Notes under the pieces: generated by a model
Told to the model about the DNA's origin: nothing
The model's database searches: none
The model's input: only the letters and a program-made list of their open reading frames with translations
Position numbers and translations under genes: made by a program
From: Actinomycetota bacterium
GTDB taxonomy: Bacteria; Actinomycetota; Thermoleophilia; Solirubrobacterales; Solirubrobacteraceae
Direction: 5' to 3'
Length of the DNA: 10,452 nt
NCBI GenBank assembly: GCA_005788585.1
Contig: SYBY01000349.1
Coordinates: 1-10,452, forward strand
In this document: piece by piece, positions 1,397 through 10,452 of the stretch
Layout: each line of letters starts with the position of its first letter
Numbering within the stretch: the stretch's first letter is position 1

Positions 1397-2336
1397 CCCG
1401 GTCCGCGCCGGCGACGCGTGGCTGCTCGCCGCGCAGGACGCCGACGGCGCGTGGCGCGACTACGCGCTGGAGCCTGGCGCCAGCGACGCGTGGGTGACCG
1501 CCGTGGTCGCGCACGCACTCGCCGCGCCGCCGGTCGCGCCCGAAGCGGTCGCCGCGATCGGGCGCGCCACCGGCTTCCTGCACGCGGTCCGACGCCCGTC
1601 GGGCTGGGGCTACAACGACCGCGCGGCAACCGACGCCGACTCGACGAGCTGGGCGCTCGCGCTGCTGCTCGCGGTGGACGACCTGCGCGGGATCGATCCC
1701 GTCGCGCTGCTGGCCCCGCGGCTCGATGCGCGCGGCGGTGCGCACACGTTCGCGGGTGCGCGCTTCGGGGGCTGGGCGGGTGAGCATCCCGAGGTCACGG
1801 CCATCGCCGCCGACGTGCTGCGCACCGCCGACCCCACGAGCCCCGCAGCCGCGGAGGCGATTGCGCGTATCCGAGCGACGCAGCGCCGCGGTGGCAGGTG
1901 GCCGGCGTACTGGTGGACGTCCGACGCCTACGCGACCGCACGCAGCCTCCTGACGCTCCACCGCGCCGGCGCGCTGGATGGCCGCACCCGGTACGCCGCG
2001 CGGCAGTGGCTGGCGTGTGCCCCCTGCGCGGCGCGCACCCCGTTCGACCTCGCCCACGTCGTGCTCGCCGCGGTCGCGCTCGACGCCGACCCCGCGGCGC
2101 GCGAGACGCAGGCCGATCGCCTCCGCGCGCTCCAGCGCCCCGACGGCGGGTGGCCGCCGTCGGCGACACTGCTCGTCCCGCCTCAGCACACCCCCGGCCG
2201 GGGCACGGCCAACGCCGACGCTCGAGGCCTCATGAGCACCGCGACCGCGGTCATGGCGCTGAAGGCAATGCACGGAACCTCTAGGCTGGCCCGCGGATGG
2301 ACCTGGGCGACGCACTGGCAGGAACACGCGTGGTGA
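1359..2336 (+). CDS. Squalene-cyclase/prenyltransferase-like alpha-alpha barrel (QW repeat) protein
   Basis: A 325-residue protein built of terpene-cyclase-type QW repeats: QDADGAW (26-32), RPSGWGYND (79-87), QRRGGRW (175-181) and QRPDGGW (259-265), with helices between them such as STATAVMALKAM (293-304). Squalene-hopene cyclases are about 630 residues with two such domains. This protein has room for one, like class II diterpene cyclase gamma/beta pieces or protein-prenyltransferase beta subunits. The segment DADSTSWAL (92-100) stands where cyclases carry DxDD, but the final Asp is Ser, so proton-initiated cyclisation is doubtful. There is no signal peptide or membrane helix. The start at ATG 1359 follows a weak GGGA and overlaps the preceding gene by 38 bases, implying coupling with the prenyltransferase candidate. 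The C-terminal 13 codons overlap the start of the ArsA-like gene. The fold is fairly sure; the reaction is unknown. Confidence 0.7.
   Translation: MSSLTASRPRTADPVRAGDAWLLAAQDADGAWRDYALEPGASDAWVTAVVAHALAAPPVAPEAVAAIGRATGFLHAVRRPSGWGYNDRAATDADSTSWALALLLAVDDLRGIDPVALLAPRLDARGGAHTFAGARFGGWAGEHPEVTAIAADVLRTADPTSPAAAEAIARIRATQRRGGRWPAYWWTSDAYATARSLLTLHRAGALDGRTRYAARQWLACAPCAARTPFDLAHVVLAAVALDADPAARETQADRLRALQRPDGGWPPSATLLVPPQHTPGRGTANADARGLMSTATAVMALKAMHGTSRLARGWTWATHWQEHAW
2282..2287 (+). promoter_or_regulatory. TAGGCT -10 box, probably leaderless promoter of the ArsA-like gene
   Basis: TAGGCT fits the TANNNT -10 motif of actinobacterial vegetative promoters. It lies nine bases before ATG 2297, inside the end of the cyclase-like gene. 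No Shine-Dalgarno sequence is visible before that ATG, so transcription starting at or next to the ATG is likely. The -35 region is poor (CTGAAG near 2259-2264). The same hexamer sits at nearly the same distance before crp. Confidence 0.45.
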
Positions 2337-3424
2337 TCGTCGCCGGCTCCGGCGGCGTGGGCAAGACCACGACGTCCGCGGCGCTCGCCATGGGCCTGGC
2401 CTCGCGTGGGCAGCGCGTCGCCGTCGTGACGATCGACCCCGCCAAGCGCCTGGCGACGTCGCTCGGCCTCGAGGACCTCGACAACGAGCCGCGGCTCGTC
2501 GACCCGTCCCGGTTCCAGGGGCACGGCATCGAGATGGAGGGCGAGCTCTGGGCGATGATGCTCGACGCCAAGCGGACCTTCGACGACCTCATCGAACGGC
2601 TCTCCCCCGACGCGAAGACCCGCGACGAGGTGCTGAGCAACCGGATCTACCAGGAGCTCTCCAGCGCCGTCGCCGGGTCGCAGGAGTTCACCGCGATCGC
2701 CAAGCTCTACGAGCTCGACCGCGAGGGCGGGTTCGACGTGCTGATCCTCGACACCCCGCCGTCGCGCAACGCGCTCGACTTCCTCGACGCGCCCGACCGC
2801 CTCACCGGCTTCCTGGAGGGCCGCGCGCTGCGCGTGTTCCTCACCCCGGGCGGGCTGGCCGCGAAGGTCATGGGCCGCGGGACGAGCGTCGTCTTCGGGG
2901 TGCTCGGCAAGGTCACGGGCGTGGACCTGCTCAACGACCTGTCGACGTTCTTCCGCGCGCTCGGCGGGCTGCTCGACGGGTTCCGTGAGCGCGCCCGCGG
3001 CGTCAAGCGGCTGCTCGCCGACCCCGCGACGACGTTCCTCATCGTGACCTCCCCCGAGCGCGAGCCGGTCGAAGAGGCCATCTTCTTCCGCGGCAAGCTC
3101 CGCGAGGCGGGGATGCCGTTCGGCGGGCTGATCGTCAACCGCGTCCACACGCTGCCCGAGGGCCTCGAAGCCGGCGCTTCGGAGACCATCGCCGACGAAC
3201 TGACCGACGCGCTCGGCGAGAACCTGGCGGGGAAGGTCGCCGCCACCGTGCGCGACGCCGAGCTGCTGTCGGCGCGCGACGCGGCCGCCATCGCGCGGCT
3301 CGGGCGTGAGGTCGACGACCCCGACCCGGTGCTCATCCCGGAGCTCGACGACGACGTCCACGATGTCGACGGCCTGGTGCTCGTGCACCGACATCTCTCC
3401 CGCTCCATCGACGGCGCGGCGTAG
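2297..3424 (+). CDS. ArsA/Get3-like ATPase
   Basis: A 375-residue SIMIBI-class P-loop ATPase of the ArsA/Get3 family. Visible motifs are the deviant Walker A GSGGVGKTT (17-25), switch I DPAKRLATSLG (48-58), switch II LDTPPSRNALDFLDAP (151-166) and the late NRV nucleotide contact (281-283). Eukaryotic Get3 delivers tail-anchored proteins and ArsA energises arsenite export. Actinobacterial homologues (the mycobacterial Rv3679/Rv3680 pair) are neither clearly one nor the other, and they lie close to crp, as here. No CxxC or other arsenite-binding cysteine cluster is seen, which argues against an arsenic role. The protein is cytosolic with no membrane segment. ATG 2297 gives the usual short N-terminal lead before the P-loop; GTG codons at 2330 and 2333 would leave almost none. 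It overlaps the cyclase-like gene by 40 bases. The usual second ATPase is not next to it. Confidence 0.88.
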   Translation: MDLGDALAGTRVVIVAGSGGVGKTTTSAALAMGLASRGQRVAVVTIDPAKRLATSLGLEDLDNEPRLVDPSRFQGHGIEMEGELWAMMLDAKRTFDDLIERLSPDAKTRDEVLSNRIYQELSSAVAGSQEFTAIAKLYELDREGGFDVLILDTPPSRNALDFLDAPDRLTGFLEGRALRVFLTPGGLAAKVMGRGTSVVFGVLGKVTGVDLLNDLSTFFRALGGLLDGFRERARGVKRLLADPATTFLIVTSPEREPVEEAIFFRGKLREAGMPFGGLIVNRVHTLPEGLEAGASETIADELTDALGENLAGKVAATVRDAELLSARDAAAIARLGREVDDPDPVLIPELDDDVHDVDGLVLVHRHLSRSIDGAA

Positions 3425-3435: not shown

Positions 3436-4098
3436 ATGGAGTGGAAGATCCTCGAAGGCGTGCCGGAAGAGGATGTCCAGCGCGTGCTCGACATGGCCCG
3501 CCGGCGGACGTTCCGCAAGGGCGAGATCGTCTTCCACGAAGGCGACCCCGGGGACACGCTGCACCTGGTACGCAGCGGCCGTTTCGCGGTGAAGGTCAGC
3601 ACGCAGTACGCCGACGAGGCGATCCTCGCGGTGCTGCGCTCCGGTGACATCTTCGGGGAGCTCGCACTGCTCAGCCCCGGAGCGCCGCGCAGCGCGACGG
3701 TCGTGGCGCTGGAGGCCGGCGAGACGATGTCGGTCCACCAGCTGGACTTCGGCCGGCTGCGCCGCGAGCAGCCCGGCGTGGGCGACGTGCTCATCAGCGT
3801 GCTCTCGGCCCAGGTCCGGCGGTTGTCGCGGCACCTGCTCGAGGCGCTCTACACGCCCGCGGACACCCGCGTGCGCCGCCGGGTGCTCGAGCTCGTCGAC
3901 ATCTACGCGGGAGATGACCCGTCGCTGCCGACGACGATCCCGCTGACCCAGGACGACCTCGCCGACCTCGCCGGGACCTCCCGCGCGACGGTCAACCGCG
4001 TGCTGCGCGAGGACGAGGCGCGGGGGATCGTGGAGCTCGGGCGCGGGCGGACGCTCGTGGTGGATCGGGGGGGCCTGCAGAAATGGGCGGGGCTTTGA
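3436..4098 (+). CDS. crp: Crp/Fnr-family transcriptional regulator, cAMP-binding type
   Basis: A 220-residue protein of standard CRP length. Residues about 8-110 form the cyclic-nucleotide-binding barrel. The phosphate-binding cassette reads FGELALLSPGAPRSATV (73-89), keeping the Glu (75) and Arg-Ser (85-86) that in E. coli CRP hold the ribose and phosphate of cAMP. A long dimer helix follows (about 112-140), then the winged helix-turn-helix (about 169-210) with recognition helix TSRATVNRVLRE (181-192). Arg183 and Arg188 match CRP Arg180 and Arg185, but CRP Glu181 is replaced by Ala. There is no cysteine cluster for an Fe-S site, so it is not Fnr-like. A TGTG-N8-CACA operator lies 270 bases downstream, before the dab operon. 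The stop codon lies in the stem of the first 56-bp repeat. The family is sure; cAMP as ligand is likely. Confidence 0.9.
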   Translation: MEWKILEGVPEEDVQRVLDMARRRTFRKGEIVFHEGDPGDTLHLVRSGRFAVKVSTQYADEAILAVLRSGDIFGELALLSPGAPRSATVVALEAGETMSVHQLDFGRLRREQPGVGDVLISVLSAQVRRLSRHLLEALYTPADTRVRRRVLELVDIYAGDDPSLPTTIPLTQDDLADLAGTSRATVNRVLREDEARGIVELGRGRTLVVDRGGLQKWAGL

Positions 4099-4121
4099 GT
4101 CGCTAGCGCTCCTCAAAGCCC
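4090..4121 (+). terminator. Hairpin at the end of crp (repeat unit 1), possible terminator
   Basis: GGGCTTTGAG (4090-4099) pairs perfectly with CTCAAAGCCC (4112-4121) around a 12-base loop that itself holds the palindrome CGCTAGCG. The crp stop codon (4096-4098) is in the left arm. No T-run follows, so it would act as a U-less terminator or as a 3' end stabiliser. Confidence 0.5.
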
Positions 4122-4235
4122 TTGGGAGTTCCTCGCCAGAGGCTGGGGTTTTGACTCGCTGACGCTCCCCAAAACCCTTGGGAGTTCCTCGCCAGAGGCT
4201 GGGGTTTTGACTCGCTGACGCTCCCCAAAACCCTT

Positions 4236-4266
4236 GGGAGTTCCTCGCCAGAGGCTCAGAACTCCC
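4236..4266. terminator. Hairpin closing the repeat block
   Basis: GGGAGTTC (4236-4243) pairs perfectly with GAACTCCC (4259-4266). Inside the loop the repeat's own CCTC/GAGG forms a second short stem. Only the last unit has the pairing right arm, so this hairpin is specific to the end of the array. It could stop read-through from either side. No U-tract follows. Confidence 0.4.
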
Positions 4267-4404: not shown

Positions 4405-4422
4405 CCGGTTTCTTGACACCGG
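4405..4422. promoter_or_regulatory. Inverted repeat over the -35 element, possible second operator
   Basis: CCGGT (4405-4409) and ACCGG (4418-4422) are perfect inverted half-sites eight bases apart, centred on the -35 hexamer. A protein bound here would block the promoter. The arms are only five bases in a GC-rich genome, so this could be chance. Confidence 0.25.
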
Positions 4423-4440
4423 AATTTCATATCGTGTATT
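4413..4440 (+). promoter_or_regulatory. Promoter of the dab-pur operon
   Basis: A perfect -35 TTGACA (4413-4418) is followed after 16 bases by TGTATT (4435-4440), which agrees with TATAAT at four positions. The spacer is locally AT-rich in an otherwise GC-rich region. The inferred start near 4447 leaves a leader of about 32 bases, with Shine-Dalgarno AAGGAG at 4468-4473 before the first gene. I see no riboswitch or attenuator in the leader. Confidence 0.6.
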
Positions 4441-4478
4441 TGTTAGCGCCCATCTGTTCCCGTCATCAAGGAGCCGAC

Positions 4479-4751
4479 ATGCCGCCCACTGCCGTCACCG
4501 CGCTGCCCGACCTCGCCGAGCCCACGCCCGAGCCGTCGTTCGCGCCGCTCGCCACGGACGTCGCCATCGCCACCGACCCGCCGGACGCCCGCCGCGTCAC
4601 GGCGCAGGCCATCGGCGCCCACATCGCCGAGCAGCTGCGGGCGGGCCGCTCGCTCTTCAACGTCGTCATGGACGCCGAGGTCTGCGAGCGCATCGGCGCC
4701 GACGGACGCGCCCGGCTCACCCGGATGCGCGCGGTGGAGTCCGGCGCATGA
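4479..4751 (+). CDS. Small uncharacterised protein, first gene of the dab operon
   Basis: A 90-residue soluble protein that I do not recognise. The N-terminal 37 residues are rich in Pro, Ala and acidic residues and probably disordered. Residues 38-90 look helical and amphipathic, with the compact segment SLFNVVMDAEVCERIGADG (58-76) and a basic end. There is no membrane segment, no signal peptide and only one cysteine. ATG 4479 has the best Shine-Dalgarno in the window (AAGGAG, five bases away) and follows the operon promoter; longer upstream extensions of the frame would run through the promoter. The stop overlaps the dabB start as ATGA, so the two are translationally coupled. Position suggests an accessory or regulatory partner of DabAB, but the sequence gives no proof. 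Codon use matches the neighbours, so it is very likely a real gene. Confidence 0.75.
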   Translation: MPPTAVTALPDLAEPTPEPSFAPLATDVAIATDPPDARRVTAQAIGAHIAEQLRAGRSLFNVVMDAEVCERIGADGRARLTRMRAVESGA

Positions 4752-6202
4752 GCGTCCTCGTCCTCATCGCCTGGGCCGCGCCCGCCCTCGGCGGTCTGCT
4801 CGCCGCCCTCGCCTCCGGCCGTGCCGGCGCCGCGGCCGTGGCCGGCCCCGCGACGACCGCGCTCATCGGCGCGGCCGTCCTCGCCGGCGTGCCGATCGGC
4901 ACCGTCGACCCGGTCGGCGGGATGCTGCTGGTGCTGGTCGGCGGCCTCGCCGCGACCGTGCAGAGCTATGCGCTGCGCCAGCTGCGCGGCGCGTCCGGCG
5001 CCCGTGCCACCACCGCGCTGCTCGGCGTGGTCGCAAGTGGCAGCGCCGTCTTCGTCACGGCCACCGCGCTGCCGGCCATGGCCGCGGCATGGACGGCCAC
5101 CGGGGCCGCCTTCCTCGGCGTCCTCGCAGTCCACCGGGCGCTGCCCGGAGGCCGCGACGCGCTGCGGCGCACGCTCCTCGCGTTCGTCGTCGCCGATGTC
5201 GCCCTCTGGAGCGCAGTCGTGCTCGACGCCAGCGGGGTCGCCCTCGACGTCGCGGCCGTGCTGCTCGTCGTCGCCGCTGCGGCACGTGCCGCGCAGCTCC
5301 CGCTGCAGGGCTGGCTCGTCGCCACCGTCGCGGCGCCGACCCCGGTCTGCGCATTCCTGCACGCCGGCATCGTCAACGCCGGCGGCATCCTGCTGCTGCG
5401 CCAGACCGACCTCTTCGGTGCCTCCAGCATCGCGATGGGCGCCGCGATCGCGATCGGTGCCGTCACGATGGTCGCGGCCGCCGTCGCCATGGCGGTCCGC
5501 TCCGACGTCAAGGGCATCCTCGCCTGCTCGACCAGCGCCCAGATGGGCTTCATGCTCGTGACCTGCGGACTCGGGGTGTGGGCCGCGACGCTCATCCACA
5601 TCGCCGGCCACGCGATGTACAAGGCCGCGAGCTTCCTCGGCGCGGGCTCGGCGATCGCCGCCCACGCGCGGCGGCGCTCGGTCCCGGCCGCACCCGCCCG
5701 GCGCCACCCCGCCCGTGACGCGGCCACCGCCGCGCTCGCACCCGCCGCCGGGCTCCTGGTCGTCGCGGCGACCGTCCCCGCCGTCGGTGAGAAGCCCGTC
5801 CTGCTGGTCTTCGCCTGGATCACCGGCGCCGCCGCCCTCTGGGGGGCGCTGCCTCGCGTGCAACGCGCGGGCGGCACCGTCGCCGCCGGCATGCTCGCGG
5901 TCGGTGCGGGCGCCGCGTACCTGGGTGCGACCACGGCACTCGGTGCGCTGCTCTCACTGCCCGACGCGGTCGGACATCCGCCCGCGTGGCTCGCCCTGCT
6001 GCCCATGGCCGCCGCCGCCGGCGCCATCGCCGTCTGGCAGCACGGCGGAGCCGTGCGCGACCGCCTGTACGTCCGGGCGATGCGCCTGGGCAGCCCGCGG
6101 CCGCTCCCGCGTCCCGTGCCCTCCTCCCTGGGCGTGACGGTCCCGCTGCGCCACGCGCTCGCCGGCCGGTCCACGACCGTCGCGGAAGGGGGTGCCGCAT
6201 GA
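4748..6202 (+). CDS. dabB: DabB, proton-conducting membrane subunit of the DAB inorganic-carbon pump
   Basis: A 484-residue polytopic membrane protein of the complex I antiporter-like (NuoL/MrpA, Proton_antipo_M) family. Conserved segments are RAAQLPLQGWL (180-190), APTPVCAFLHAGIVNAGG (196-213), SDVKGILACSTSAQMGF (252-268) and HAMYKAASF (288-296). These hold the helix-bundle lysines and histidine that relay protons in this fold. Hydrophobic helices begin at residue 5. The HAGIVNAGG form and the shortened length, without the long lateral helix of NuoL, are typical of DabB rather than of complex I, and no other nuo genes are nearby. In characterised DAB systems DabB is thought to conduct cations that energise DabA. 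It starts on the ATGA shared with the upstream gene, with GGTGGAG eight bases before, and ends on the ATGA shared with dabA. Confidence 0.9.
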   Translation: MSVLVLIAWAAPALGGLLAALASGRAGAAAVAGPATTALIGAAVLAGVPIGTVDPVGGMLLVLVGGLAATVQSYALRQLRGASGARATTALLGVVASGSAVFVTATALPAMAAAWTATGAAFLGVLAVHRALPGGRDALRRTLLAFVVADVALWSAVVLDASGVALDVAAVLLVVAAAARAAQLPLQGWLVATVAAPTPVCAFLHAGIVNAGGILLLRQTDLFGASSIAMGAAIAIGAVTMVAAAVAMAVRSDVKGILACSTSAQMGFMLVTCGLGVWAATLIHIAGHAMYKAASFLGAGSAIAAHARRRSVPAAPARRHPARDAATAALAPAAGLLVVAATVPAVGEKPVLLVFAWITGAAALWGALPRVQRAGGTVAAGMLAVGAGAAYLGATTALGALLSLPDAVGHPPAWLALLPMAAAAGAIAVWQHGGAVRDRLYVRAMRLGSPRPLPRPVPSSLGVTVPLRHALAGRSTTVAEGGAA

Positions 6203-8709
6203 GCGCAGTCACCGTCATGCCCACGGGCACGGTCGCCGATCGCGCGACCGCCATCGCCGCCGAACTCGCTCCGGCGTGGCCGCTCGAGCGCTTCGTCGCG
6301 GTCAACCCCCTCGCGGGGCTCGAGCACCTGCCGTTCGCGGAGGCGGTCGCGCGCGTCGGCACCACCGTCGGCGCGCCTGGCTGGCGCGCGGAATCCGCCC
6401 TGCGCGCGGCCGAGCAGGCCGGACGCATCACGGATGCGGACCTCAGGGCCGCGCTGCGCGACCATGTCGGGCCCGCCTGCGAGGAGGCAGTCGAGCTCGC
6501 ACCGGGACGCAGCACCACGCTGGAGTTCGTGCTGCTCGCCGACCTCCGTCACGCCCCGGCCGCACCCGCGCCGCAGCGCCGCGTGCTGACCCCCGCCGAG
6601 GCGTGGGACGCGGCCCACGGGACCCGGTTGGCCGACACCGCCGACACGCTGATGTCCGGCTGGCTCGCCGCGTACCTCGACGAGGGGCAGGCCCGCTGGG
6701 CGCTGCCGCGCCGCGACCTCGGCCTGTACGGCGCGTGGCGCGCGCTCAGCCCCCACGACCCGGCGTTCTCGCGCGCCGCACGCCGTGAGCTGGCCTCGCT
6801 CCCCGACGAGGCGGAGACGGCCCTCGCGCAGCTCCTCGACGAGTCGGGAGACGATGGGGACGCGCTCCTGCGCGCGCTGCTCACCCGACAGCCGGGCTGG
6901 ACCGCGTACGCCCGGTGGCGCAGCGAGCACGTGGGCGACCTGGACGCCGCCGAGATCGCCGCGCTGCGCCTCGCGTCCGAGCGGGCGCTGCTCCTGCCGG
7001 TCGCCGGCGCCGAGCCGCTCGCACGGATCCCCGACCCGCCTCGGGAGGCGGCGCCGGACCCGCAGGCGCGGATCGACGCGGTCGCCGCGGCGCTCGAAGC
7101 CGATCCGGGAGCGACGGCGCTCGCCGACGCGCTGGCGCGTGTGCGGCCCGCCGACCGTGCCGCGATCTGGCAGGACGCGCTCGAACGCGGGTACCGGCGC
7201 GATCTCCTCGGCCGCATCGCGACCGCGCCTCCGCGCCCGGCGCCGGCGACGGTCGCGGCGCAGGCCGTCTTCTGCATCGACGTGCGGTCCGAGCCCCTGC
7301 GCCGTGGCCTCGAGGCCGCCGGCCCGTACGAGACCCTCGGCTTCGCCGGCTTCTTCGGCCTGCCGGTCGCGGTCCGCGCGCTCGGCGGCGAGGTCACGAC
7401 CGAGCAGTGCCCGGTGCTCGTCTCCCCCGCCGCCACGCTCGACGAGGTCGCGGCGCCCGGAGCCGAGGCCGACGCGGCCCGGCGCATTCAGCGGGTCGAC
7501 CGGGTCGCCGCGGCCCGCGACGCCTTCGCCGGCGCGAAGAAGGGGCTGGCCGCGAAGTACGCGTTCGCCGAGGCCGTCGGCTTCGTCATGGGCCCCGTGG
7601 CGACCGCGCGGACGCTCGCACCCGACCGCGCCGCGGCACTCGCCGGGCGCGCCGGGAGCACCCCGCCGGTCGGCACGCACCTCGACCTGTCGGCGCTGTC
7701 GGTCGAGGACCGCGCGGCGGCGGCACGCGACGCGCTCACCGCGATGGGACTCGTCGCGGTCTTCGCGCCCGTGGTCCTGCTCTGCGGCCACGGGAGCACG
7801 ACCACGAACAACCCCCACCAGGCGGCGCTGGACTGCGGCGCCTGCGGCGGGCATCGCGGCGCGGCCAACGCGCGGGCGATGGCGGCGGTGCTGAACGACC
7901 CGGCCGTCCGGGCGCTCCTCGCCGGGGACGGGATCGCGATCCCCGCGTCGACCTGGTTCGCCGCGGCCGAGCACGACACCGCCACCGACGTCGTCACGCT
8001 GCTCGACACGGACGTGCCGGCCGAGCACCGGGAGGTCGTGGCCCGGCTGGCCGACGACCTCGCCCTCGCCGGGGCGTGCACCGCGGCCGGCCGCGCACGG
8101 GCCCTGCCGGGAGCCGACCCCCGCCGGGACGGCGTCGACGAGGTGCGCACGCGCAGTCGCGACTGGGCGCAGGTCGCGCCGGAGTGGGGGCTCGCCGGGT
8201 GCGCCGCGCTCGTCGTCGGCTCCCGGGAGCTCACCGCCGGCTGCGACCTCGGCGGCCGGGTGTTCCTGCACTCCTACGACGCGGCGGCCGACCCCGACGG
8301 GGCGGCGCTCGAGGTCATCCTCACCGCACCGCTCGTCGTCGCCCACTGGATCGCGAGCCAGTACTACTTCTCGTCGGTCGCGCCCGAGCACTTCGGGGCG
8401 GGGACGAAGATCAGCCACAACGTGGTCGGCGCGGTCGGGGTCCTGAGCGGCCCCGGCGGGGACCTGCGCGGCGGTCTGCCGTGGGAGTCGGTCGGCGCCG
8501 GAGCGGAGCTCGTCCACGAGCCGCAGCGGCTGCTGGCGGTGGTCGACGCGCCGCACGACCGGATCGACCGCATCCTCGACGGGGCGCCGCAGGTGCGGAC
8601 GCTCGTCGACGGCCGGTGGGTCACGCTCGTCGCTCGCGACGAGCCCGGCGCGCCGTGGTGCCGCCGCCTGCCGGATGGCGGCTGGATCGCCGAGGAGGTG
8701 TCGGCATGA
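6199..8709 (+). CDS. dabA: DabA, zinc-dependent CO2-hydrating subunit (DUF2309/UPF0753)
   Basis: An 836-residue protein of normal family length. DabA is a beta-carbonic-anhydrase-like protein that, with DabB, converts CO2 to bicarbonate vectorially in the cytoplasm. The four residues corresponding to the zinc site and aspartate of Halothiobacillus DabA (Cys351, Asp353, His524, Cys539) are present: FCIDVRSEP gives Cys359 and Asp361, CGHGSTTTNNPH gives His531, and DCGACGGHRGAANARA gives Cys546. The spacings agree to within one residue. Other family landmarks are ERFVAVNPLAG (30-40) near the N terminus and GFAGFFG (381-387). An Arg follows the Asp in the CID-R motif, as in carbonic anhydrases. 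It is predicted soluble and membrane-bound only through DabB. It starts on the ATGA overlap after AAGGGGG (6186-6192) and ends on another ATGA overlap with purK. All key residues are intact, so it should be active. Confidence 0.93.
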   Translation: MSAVTVMPTGTVADRATAIAAELAPAWPLERFVAVNPLAGLEHLPFAEAVARVGTTVGAPGWRAESALRAAEQAGRITDADLRAALRDHVGPACEEAVELAPGRSTTLEFVLLADLRHAPAAPAPQRRVLTPAEAWDAAHGTRLADTADTLMSGWLAAYLDEGQARWALPRRDLGLYGAWRALSPHDPAFSRAARRELASLPDEAETALAQLLDESGDDGDALLRALLTRQPGWTAYARWRSEHVGDLDAAEIAALRLASERALLLPVAGAEPLARIPDPPREAAPDPQARIDAVAAALEADPGATALADALARVRPADRAAIWQDALERGYRRDLLGRIATAPPRPAPATVAAQAVFCIDVRSEPLRRGLEAAGPYETLGFAGFFGLPVAVRALGGEVTTEQCPVLVSPAATLDEVAAPGAEADAARRIQRVDRVAAARDAFAGAKKGLAAKYAFAEAVGFVMGPVATARTLAPDRAAALAGRAGSTPPVGTHLDLSALSVEDRAAAARDALTAMGLVAVFAPVVLLCGHGSTTTNNPHQAALDCGACGGHRGAANARAMAAVLNDPAVRALLAGDGIAIPASTWFAAAEHDTATDVVTLLDTDVPAEHREVVARLADDLALAGACTAAGRARALPGADPRRDGVDEVRTRSRDWAQVAPEWGLAGCAALVVGSRELTAGCDLGGRVFLHSYDAAADPDGAALEVILTAPLVVAHWIASQYYFSSVAPEHFGAGTKISHNVVGAVGVLSGPGGDLRGGLPWESVGAGAELVHEPQRLLAVVDAPHDRIDRILDGAPQVRTLVDGRWVTLVARDEPGAPWCRRLPDGGWIAEEVSA

Positions 8710-9857
8710 GCGCCACCGTGACGGCGGCGCCCACCGCCCGCGTCGGCATCGTCGGCGGCGGGCAGCTCGCCCGGATGTCCCACGCCGCCGCCACGGGTCT
8801 GGGCATCGAGGTCCACGTGCTCGACGCGCCGGGCGCGCCGGCAGCCGCAGCGGGCGCCCGGCTCGTGGCCGGGGACGCGGGCCGCCTCGACGATCTCGTG
8901 CGCCTGGCGTCGCGCGTCGACGTCGTGACGTTCGACCACGAACACGCCGATCCGGCGGCGCTGCGCGCGCTCGTCGATCGCGGCGTGGCCGTCCGGCCGG
9001 GGCCCGTGATCAAGCGCCTGGCCCAGGACAAGCTGCACGCCCGCTCGGTGCTCGGCACGGAGCTCGGCATGCCGGTCCCCGCATTCGCGCGGGTCGAGGA
9101 CGCCGGGGACGTGGCGGCCTTCGCCGCCTCCCACGGCTGGCCTGTCGTCCTGAAGGCGATCACCGGCGGGTACGACGGGCGCGGCGTGCGGATCGTCGCC
9201 ACGCCGCACGAGGCCGAGGGCGCACTGGCCGCGCTCGGCCGGCCGGCGCTGGCGGAGGCGCACGTCGCCATCGACACCGAGCTCTCCGTCCTCGTCGCAC
9301 GCGCGGCGGGCACCGGGGAGACGCGGGCCTATCCGGTCGTCGAGACGCTCCAGCGCGACGGGATCTGCCATGAGACCGTCCTGCCGGCGCGCGTCGAACC
9401 CGACGTCGCGGCGTGCGCGCGGGCGCTGGGTCTGGCCCTCGCGGAGGCGATCGAGCTCGAGGGGCTGCTCGCCGTCGAGCTGTTCGTCAGCGGGGGCGAC
9501 CTGCTCGTCAACGAGCTCGCCCTGCGGCCGCACAACTCGGGCCACGTCACGCTCGATGGCTGCGTGACCTCGCAGTTCGAGCAGCACCTGCGCGCGGTGC
9601 TCGGCTGGCCCCTCGGCGCGACCCGCGCGATCGCCCCGGCGGCCGCGATGGTCAACGTCCTCGGTCCCGCCGACGGCAGCGACCCCGGCACGCGGGTGGC
9701 GCAGGCGCTCGCCGTCCAGGGCGCCCATGTCCACCTCTACGGCAAGGCGCCGCGCCCCGGGCGCAAGCTCGGGCACGTCACCGCCCTCGGGCCCGACGCG
9801 GATGCCGCGCTCCACGCCGCCCGCGCCGCGGCGCACACCCTGGAGGGACGGCGATGA
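8706..9857 (+). CDS. purK: N5-carboxyaminoimidazole ribonucleotide synthase
   Basis: A 383-residue ATP-grasp enzyme that joins AIR and bicarbonate using ATP to give N5-CAIR in de novo purine synthesis. Motifs are the N-terminal [12 protein letters not shown] (13-24), TFDHEH (75-80, the actinobacterial version of the usual TYEFEN), QDKLHAR (107-113), the ATP-grasp lysine and glycine loop [13 protein letters not shown] (148-160), and the signature [22 protein letters not shown] (from 273 on). The C terminus [16 protein letters not shown] (343-358) is typical. ATG 8706 overlaps the dabA stop as ATGA and has a strong GAGGAGG seven bases before. It overlaps purE the same way. The notable point is its context: a bicarbonate-consuming enzyme coupled directly to a bicarbonate-supplying pump. 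Confidence 0.95.
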
Positions 9858-10360
9858 GCGCACCACGCGTCGGAATCGCGATGGGCAGCCGCTCGGACCT
9901 GCCCGTCATGGAGGCTGCGGCCGAGGCGCTCGAGGAGTTCGGGATCGCCCACGAGCTGCGCATCGTCTCCGCCCACCGCACCCCGCGGGAGATGCTGGCC
10001 TACGGCGAGGAGGCCGAGAGCCGCGGGCTGCAGGTCATCATCGCCGGGGCCGGCGGCGCGGCGCACCTCCCGGGGATGCTCGCGTCCGTGACCCCACTGC
10101 CCGTCATCGGGGTGCCCGTGCCGCTGCGCCACCTCGACGGCGTCGACAGCCTGCTGTCGATCTCCCAGATGCCGCGTGGCGTCCCGGTCGCGACGGTCGC
10201 GATCGGCAACGCGCGCAACGCCGGACTGCTGGCCGTCCGGATCCTCGCCGCCGCCGACCCCGAGCTGCGAGCGCGGGTGGCGGCCTTCCAGACCGAGATC
10301 GCGCAGGCGTCGCTGGGCGACGACCGCGCACTTCGCACCTCCGACCCCGAAGGGACCTGA
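9854..10360 (+). CDS. purE: N5-carboxyaminoimidazole ribonucleotide mutase (class I PurE)
   Basis: A 168-residue protein, the usual length. It moves the carboxyl group of N5-CAIR to carbon to give CAIR, the step after PurK. Visible are [10 protein letters not shown] (10-19) with the Ser and Asp of the nucleotide site, SAHRTP (39-44) holding the catalytic His41, and [20 protein letters not shown] (65-84), the class I glycine-rich loop with HLPGM. The presence of purK beside it confirms the bicarbonate-using class I route rather than the CO2-using class II one. The start overlaps the purK stop as ATGA, with GGAGGGA five bases before. The C-terminal tail is polar and probably disordered. Confidence 0.96.
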
Positions 10361-10363
10361 CCC

Positions 10364-10452
10364 ATGCTCTCGTCCAAGCGCCTGCTCATCACGGGCCTCG
10401 TGACCACGGACAGCATCGCGTTCGCCGTCGCCGAGCGCGCCCAGCTCGCCGG
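10364..10452 (+). CDS. fabI: Enoyl-ACP reductase (FabI/InhA-like), 5' end only
   Basis: The first 29 codons run off the window. They read MLSSKRLLITGLVTTDSIAF then AVAERAQLA. This is the N-terminal strand and glycine-rich turn of the FabI/InhA group of short-chain dehydrogenases, where the NADH-binding motif has the form GxxxxxSIAxxxA (Gly11, Ser17-Ile18-Ala19). These enzymes reduce the enoyl-ACP double bond in fatty-acid elongation. AAGGGA (10350-10355) lies eight bases before ATG 10364, and only three bases separate it from the purE stop, so it probably belongs to the same transcript. The catalytic part is outside the window, so completeness cannot be judged. Confidence 0.75.
   Translation, partial: MLSSKRLLITGLVTTDSIAFAVAERAQLA

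Follow-up and report, generated by a model that had tools for sequence, protein, structure and literature searches.

The DAB2 complex of Halothiobacillus neapolitanus is described as a vectorial (one-way) CO2 hydratase that is driven by the proton motive force, and not as a bicarbonate pump. Residues C351, D353, R355, H524, C539, and E444 of its DabA2 subunit are reported to matter, and L658 is conserved (PMC13144422). In purine biosynthesis, PurK is reported to use bicarbonate, while at very high concentrations of dissolved inorganic carbon PurE carboxylates aminoimidazole ribonucleotide (AIR) with CO2 and without PurK; purK mutants of cyanobacteria are reported to need high CO2 (PMC10880623). 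In this report, we describe a stretch of 10,452 nucleotides from an Actinomycetota bacterium (GenBank assembly GCA_005788585.1, contig SYBY01000349.1), hereafter the window, in which the genes for a DAB complex are joined to purK and purE.

Five intact open reading frames (ORFs) were found by translation on the + strand between positions 4479 and 10360, in the order small ORF-dabB-dabA-purK-purE. Each neighbouring pair has an ATGA in common, at positions 4748, 6199, 8706, and 9854, and these four overlaps, which had been noted in the initial annotation, were confirmed by the ORF coordinates; the identities of the last four genes were confirmed by their family matches. The genes are contiguous, lie on the same strand, and overlap, as in a single operon, and they are probably co-transcribed. 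Scanning of 4479-10360 revealed neither a consensus promoter nor a terminator-like site.

The window DabA aligns with DabA2 (PDB 9rd0) over nearly the full length of the protein. Residues C359, D361, R363, H531, C546, E458, and L665 of the window correspond to C351, D353, R355, H524, C539, E444, and L658 of DabA2, respectively. Membership in the DAB family is indicated by the match to PF10070, the three zinc ligands (C359, H531, and C546), the Asp-Arg dyad (D361 and R363), and the adjoining gene for a NuoL-like DabB (PF00361). In the latter, six of the eight proton-path and ion-pair residues that were checked are identical to those of DabB2, the two changes being R180 for K235 and C201 for S256. 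The initial annotation had called this system a bicarbonate pump, which is a loose name because CO2 enters and the bicarbonate is formed inside; by analogy with the homologue DAB2 (PMC13144422), the window DAB is probably better named a vectorial CO2 hydratase. The window PurK carries the ATP-grasp and PurK_C domains (PF02222 and PF17769) and passes the curated cutoff of TIGR01161. The best PDB matches to the window PurE were 3lp6 and 1o4v; 34 PurE chains scored 117-203 bits, and 3rg8, 5c5d, 2h31, and 4ja0 scored 45-57 bits. It was assigned to class I (the N5-CAIR mutases, for N5-carboxyaminoimidazole ribonucleotide) on the grounds that it passes TIGR01162 and is far nearer to the bacterial N5-CAIR mutase structures than to those of class II.

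We propose, with a probability of roughly 55%, that this operon is a low-CO2 purine module in which the pump and its consumers are made from one message. DabB would admit protons that drive DabA in the one-way hydration of CO2 to cytoplasmic bicarbonate. PurK would use this bicarbonate and ATP for the conversion of AIR to N5-CAIR, and PurE would convert N5-CAIR to CAIR. A single message would keep the supply of bicarbonate matched to a step of purine synthesis that suffers when CO2 is short. In the relatives of the window the module would serve as a second, bicarbonate-fed route beside a resident PurE that is encoded after purD and is presumably a direct user of CO2. The parts are known and the arrangement is new; no report of DAB, or of the transporter SbtA considered below, linked to purK was found in the open-access literature, which was judged mostly on titles and the openings of abstracts.

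The genome-wide results come from relatives of the window, above all G001, whose DabA is 94-95% identical (G denotes a genome and L a locus; G001, G002, and G003 contain L001, L002, and L004, respectively, G254 contains L102, and G005 contains L064). In a scan of species genomes for DabA, with the position of purK judged by tblastn, purK was found beside or near dabA in 6 of the best 80 loci (L001, L002, L004, L022, L064, and L072). In L072 the purK gene lies upstream near dabB with opposed ORFs between, and this locus was counted as near and not as linked; it is still labelled in the DabA and PurK trees. Two classes were drawn, the first (399 genomes) centred on Svornostia abyssi (Thermoleophilia) and the second (296 genomes) centred on G005. 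DabA was found above the cutoff in 12 and 19 genomes, respectively, with G259 excluded for a match below the cutoff. Five of the 12 (G001, G002, G254, G003, and G374) and two of the 19 (G005 and G633) have purK following dabA; the contig of G169 ends inside dabA, and the linkage could not be judged there. The PurK encoded next to dabA is the only PurK above the cutoff in 9/9 genomes searched.

The order bagB-crp-small ORF-dabB-dabA-purK-purE-fabI is kept in the closest kin, L001 (a Solirubrobacteraceae metagenome-assembled genome, MAG), L002 (Svornostia abyssi), and L102. All four overlaps are kept in L001 and L102, the latter with GTGA at dabA-purK, and three of the four in L002 (small ORF-dabB, dabA-purK, and purK-purE). 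A candidate purK start overlaps the preceding gene by 4 bases in L001, L002, L102, L004, L022, L154, and L108. DabA of lower identity (about 43-54%) lead into purK as well, some with an intervening PII-like gene, which lies between dabA and purK in L004, L022, and L154 (Pfam P-II confirmed for L004). Of the 109 dab loci, 35 have such a gene a short way past dabA (these three and 32 more, leaving out L110, a second copy of L004), and it was not found in the clade of the window. The adjacency of dabA and purK, for which the initial annotation had proposed a survey, is not confined to one assembly: three relatives keep the order and more distant DabA are linked as well.

The DabA tree has 107 rows, with pieces shorter than 380 residues excluded (L154 among them), and nine of its rows come from loci where purK adjoins dabA or lies close by. 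These nine fall in several places: four, the window included, form one clade, L022, L064, and L072 belong to an assemblage, and L004 and L108 branch at other points. The purK-side label needs six changes on this tree, at least three of which are forced by well-supported branches. Because the gene orders differ among the linked loci, the sequences would speak for a repeated joining of dab and purK, with a single gain followed by losses as the less favoured possibility. In one locus (L064:2-2926), DabA and PurK occupy one open frame with no stop between them and 51 residues between the Pfam matches, and the purE frame follows directly. The long PurK proteins P0122-P0125 were considered as DabA fusions and rejected, since by eye they appear to contain a second PurK-like half in addition to PurK itself, with two ATP-grasp stretches. 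Among the DabA matches listed from plasmid records (10/123), all were less than 60% identical, and the sole phage match was partial.

A second transporter is found in the same position. During the examination of purK in relatives that have no adjoining DAB, an SbtA-like gene was found to end one base before purK in G029. SbtA (PF05982) is present in 21/399 genomes of the first class, and it directly precedes purK-purE in G029, G248, G352, and G186 and purE-purK in G159 (L193) (five genomes of the same class, loci L157 and L191-L194). The order sbtA-purK-purE-fabI in G352 is that of the window with a different transporter, and in G082 the SbtA gene is about 4 kb from purK-purE. In the PurK tree, one clade unites four rows linked to SbtA with L004, which is linked to DAB, and with three rows that have neither of the transporters next to purK. 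If the adjacencies are reduced to three DAB events among 12 genomes and two SbtA events among 21 genomes, the probabilities of chance are about 1e-6 and 6e-4, respectively, on the rough assumption of 6 neighbouring genes in 3500. The cluster purK-purE-fabI occurs with no transporter in G109 and G124, so the transporters look like additions. DAB thus looks like a newcomer, as it would if a dab cassette had been inserted neutrally ahead of a pre-existing purK-purE-fabI cluster and retained for steady expression. We consider this unlikely, since neutral insertion predicts neither the SbtA gene that occupies this site in G352, nor the other arrangements (dabA-PII-purK-purE), nor the presence of PurK in 12/12 DabA genomes. 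In mycobacteria, a bicarbonate-related gene, for a SulP-carbonic anhydrase, lies near purE-purK. In G082, which lacks DabA, sbtA and purE are separated by an ORF that by eye resembles a 2-oxoacid:acceptor oxidoreductase. In G019, G073, G095, and G106, a beta-carbonic anhydrase match lies on the same strand as the SbtA gene, no more than about 350 bases away.

Two types of PurE were encountered in these genomes. Of 20 first-class genomes without PurK that were searched, 18 carry a PurE that has no His in an 11-residue stretch (AGAG-xx-A-A-LPG and similar); of the other two, G021 has the AAHLPG type found in the window and G032 only a LarB-like match. The second PurE type is preceded in 15/15 loci read by a purD-like sequence, recognised visually or from a short motif, and followed by a purB-like sequence in 8 of them; L269 did not show the PurE motif itself. 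A variant of this type, the one tested, is still far closer to the N5-CAIR mutase structures than to those of class II. In the kin of the window, G001, G002, and G254 (L212/L236, L243/L265, and L248/L268, respectively), the AAHLPG type beside purK coexists with the His-less variant after purD. From these sequences we infer that the PurE after purD probably works without PurK, and so would use CO2, and that dab-purK-purE in the kin of the window would be an added, bicarbonate-fed route to CAIR. Both types are found in only 6/12 DabA genomes (G001, G002, G254, G003, G218, and G376), so a second route would hold for the clade of the window and not for every genome with DAB. On contig C40 of G376, the two types lie within 1.1 kb of one another on opposite strands.

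PurK is strongly enriched in genomes with either transporter. The counts use the curated TIGR01161 cutoff, under which six first-class genomes scored as PurK-less (G326, G250, G393, G312, G347, and G282; none with DabA or SbtA) hold a truncated or sub-cutoff PurK, and several second-class genomes fall just below it. PurK is above the cutoff in 89/399 genomes of the first class: 12/12 with DabA versus 77/387 without (Fisher 8e-9), 18/21 with SbtA (not G101, G140, and G277) versus 71/378 without (Fisher 3e-10), and 29/32 with DabA or SbtA versus 60/367 others (Fisher 6e-18). For the second class, PurK was found in 103/296 genomes, comprising 16/19 with DabA and 87/277 others (Fisher 7e-6), and all of these Fisher values overstate the evidence because kinship and assembly gaps are ignored.

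Beta-carbonic anhydrase was surveyed in 80 of 89 chosen genomes of the first class and was found in 12/12 with DabA, 14/17 with SbtA and PurK and without DabA, 24/25 with PurK and neither transporter, and 12/26 without PurK. The CxDxR..HxxC pattern was kept in all six loci that were read. The enzyme tracks PurK (50/54 PurK genomes versus 12/26 without), which fits a demand of PurK for bicarbonate and equally a shared low-CO2 habitat. The absence of a separate carbonic anhydrase, which the initial annotation had offered as a check, does not hold in this class. DAB as a stand-in for a missing carbonic anhydrase, of the Staphylococcus aureus type, was rejected on the same counts.

A serious rival is that DAB provides a general supply of bicarbonate in air, for acetyl-CoA, propionyl-CoA, and pyruvate carboxylases and for carbamoyl phosphate, with purK-purE being a convenient, always-on neighbour, and that DabA, SbtA, carbonic anhydrase, and PurK are kept together in low-CO2 habitats. 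General carboxylations are reported to be served by MpsAB in heterotrophs (PMC8552792), and in autotrophs the mode of AIR carboxylation is reported to be related to whether the habitat is low or high in CO2 (PMC10880623). Most of the 109 dab loci are not beside purK, and the tracking of PurK by carbonic anhydrase is also in accord with this explanation. It does not account as readily for two unrelated transporters with a common neighbour, for junctions that overlap or nearly do so, or for the one fused frame. We hold a general supply to be a tentative possibility that is, in our view, a little over half as likely as purine synthesis as the main client.

In addition to the kinship and assembly gaps noted above, several observations weigh against purine synthesis as the main client. 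A low-CO2 habitat could select PurK, carbonic anhydrase, and the uptake of dissolved inorganic carbon separately. Other sources of bicarbonate exist and PurK does not need DAB, because beta-carbonic anhydrase is present in all of the DabA genomes and in nearly all of the transporter-less PurK genomes of the survey. The purK linkage is a minority arrangement in both classes (5/12 and 2/19 DabA genomes), and purE does not follow purK in G374. Three of the 19 second-class DabA genomes have no PurK above the cutoff (none in G540 and G627, sub-cutoff in G416). Five of the 12 first-class DabA genomes have the AAHLPG type of PurE only (G143, G145, G169, G200, and G224), and G374 has the other type only. 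The DabA-PurK fusion comes from one MAG (L064) at 2.3-fold coverage, and no second fusion was found among 41 matches in a database search for long PurK proteins (7989 candidates scored). The SbtA gene in G186 (L194) is a fragment. An apparent frameshift lies within dabB of Svornostia abyssi (L002:9502-9591), as either a sequencing error or a broken gene; a DabB-DabA fusion at this locus was rejected, since the translation is a frameshift-like stretch inside dabB.

Autotrophic CO2 fixation is the best-known role of the DAB family (PMC13144422), and feeding of this process, as in Halothiobacillus, would be a further explanation for the operon. The initial annotation saw no carboxysome or RuBisCO genes, and the same was found here: none of the nine window proteins scanned against Pfam and NCBIfam matched these families. 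A search for the RuBisCO large chain in genomes of relatives with dabA by purK, several of which are MAGs and one of which (G006) has purK only near, gave 0/9, so the RuBisCO expected of a carboxysome-linked CO2-concentrating mechanism was not found in them. We therefore regard the autotrophic explanation as very improbable, a rejection that applies to RuBisCO only, as other fixation pathways were not searched.

The link between DAB and purine carboxylation that the initial annotation had put forward is thus strengthened by its recurrence, its presence in several DabA lineages, the fused frame, the mirror arrangement with SbtA, and the enrichment of PurK, and it is weakened by being a minority arrangement. 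The results suggest that bicarbonate is concentrated for the building blocks of DNA and RNA in some bacteria without RuBisCO-based CO2 fixation. Two unrelated uptake systems that are repeatedly tied to purine carboxylation offer one concrete, testable client for DAB in non-fixers, and the presence of PurK is suggested as a marker of low-CO2 life beyond autotrophs. A bolder idea, which we regard as doubtful, is that DAB (or SbtA), PurK, and PurE form one assembly in which fresh bicarbonate would be passed directly to PurK, as would happen with the DabA-PurK fusion. Such an assembly would be a CO2-independent bypass of the CO2-using PurE, and purine synthesis would be a dedicated client of the carbon-concentrating machinery.

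At E 0.001, the small ORF has no match in Pfam or NCBIfam. Its homologues precede dabB in 10/109 dab loci in addition to the window, at loci with and without purK; at least one locus (L143) repeats another (L012). The family comprises 135 database relatives, mostly of about 80-155 residues, with the motifs GRSL..VV.D and G.DGRA, and no Pfam family was found among the 120 listed of the 135. The structure model is weak (mean pLDDT, the predicted local confidence, of 72) and has one long good helix and two short ones. The product is a candidate accessory protein of DAB.

The features of the window are collected in Table 1. Ahead of the small ORF, TTGACA-N17-GTATYT is kept in all four members of the clade (the window, L001, L002, and L102), in DNA that is otherwise very GC-rich. 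A sigma-70 scan gave no consensus promoter in the window, and the leader is thus a candidate only. An Rfam search of the window gave no match. Three 56-base tandem repeats at 4089-4256 overlap the end of crp, and a 22-base core is found twice in the same gap of L002.

Table 1. Positions and assignments of the operon genes and their neighbours in the window
Feature	Position	Strand	Assignment and remarks
BagB-like ATPase, upstream	2297-3424		Best NCBIfam match, below the cutoff of that model
Crp-family regulator, upstream	3436..4098	+	PF00027 and PF13545; constant neighbour, same position in L001, L002, and L102
Candidate AT-rich promoter-like leader	4413..4478	+	TTGACA 4413-4418, 17 bases, GTATTT 4436-4441; ribosome site AAGGAGCCGAC at end
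Small ORF, 90 aa	4479..4751	+	Uncharacterised DAB-associated protein; motif GRSLxxVVxD..GxDGRA
dabB, 484 aa	4748..6202	+	NuoL-like membrane subunit; PF00361 (Proton_antipo_M) 86 bits, cutoff 21.5; DabB2 of PDB 9rd0
dabA, 836 aa	6199..8709	+	Beta-carbonic anhydrase-like cytoplasmic subunit; PF10070 785 bits, cutoff 25; DabA2 of PDB 9rd0
purK, 383 aa	8706..9857	+	N5-CAIR synthetase (HCO3- and ATP); TIGR01161 349.4 bits, cutoff 318.4; PF02222 and PF17769
purE, 168 aa	9854..10360	+	N5-CAIR mutase, AAHLPG type; TIGR01162 212 bits, cutoff 149.6
fabI-like ORF start	10364..10452	+	Cut by the window end; 3 bases past purE; fabI-like match at the same spot in L001, L002, and L102

The closest described system is DAB2 of Halothiobacillus neapolitanus, with which the window shares the two-subunit complex (DabA2-DabB2), the zinc ligands, the Asp-Arg dyad, the finger glutamate, and the conserved leucine. 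It differs in that the window operon has purK-purE and a small ORF, in that DabB has Arg and Cys in place of K235 and S256, and in that RuBisCO was not found in 9/9 genomes of relatives with the dabA-purK link. The SbtA loci of G029, G248, G352, G159, and G186 resemble the window in that purK-purE or purE-purK is directly preceded by a gene from a family of bicarbonate transporters. In contrast to DAB, SbtA belongs to an unrelated, single-protein family, and its transport function at these loci is putative. MpsAB of Staphylococcus is a DAB homologue in a heterotroph and is reported to be needed in ordinary air (PMC6689103; PMC8552792). S. aureus is described as having MpsAB but no carbonic anhydrase (PMC8567241), whereas beta-carbonic anhydrase coexists with DabA in the first-class genomes. 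Some Firmicutes are reported to have a carbonic anhydrase gene downstream of MpsAB (PMC8552792), whereas in the window this place is taken by purK-purE.

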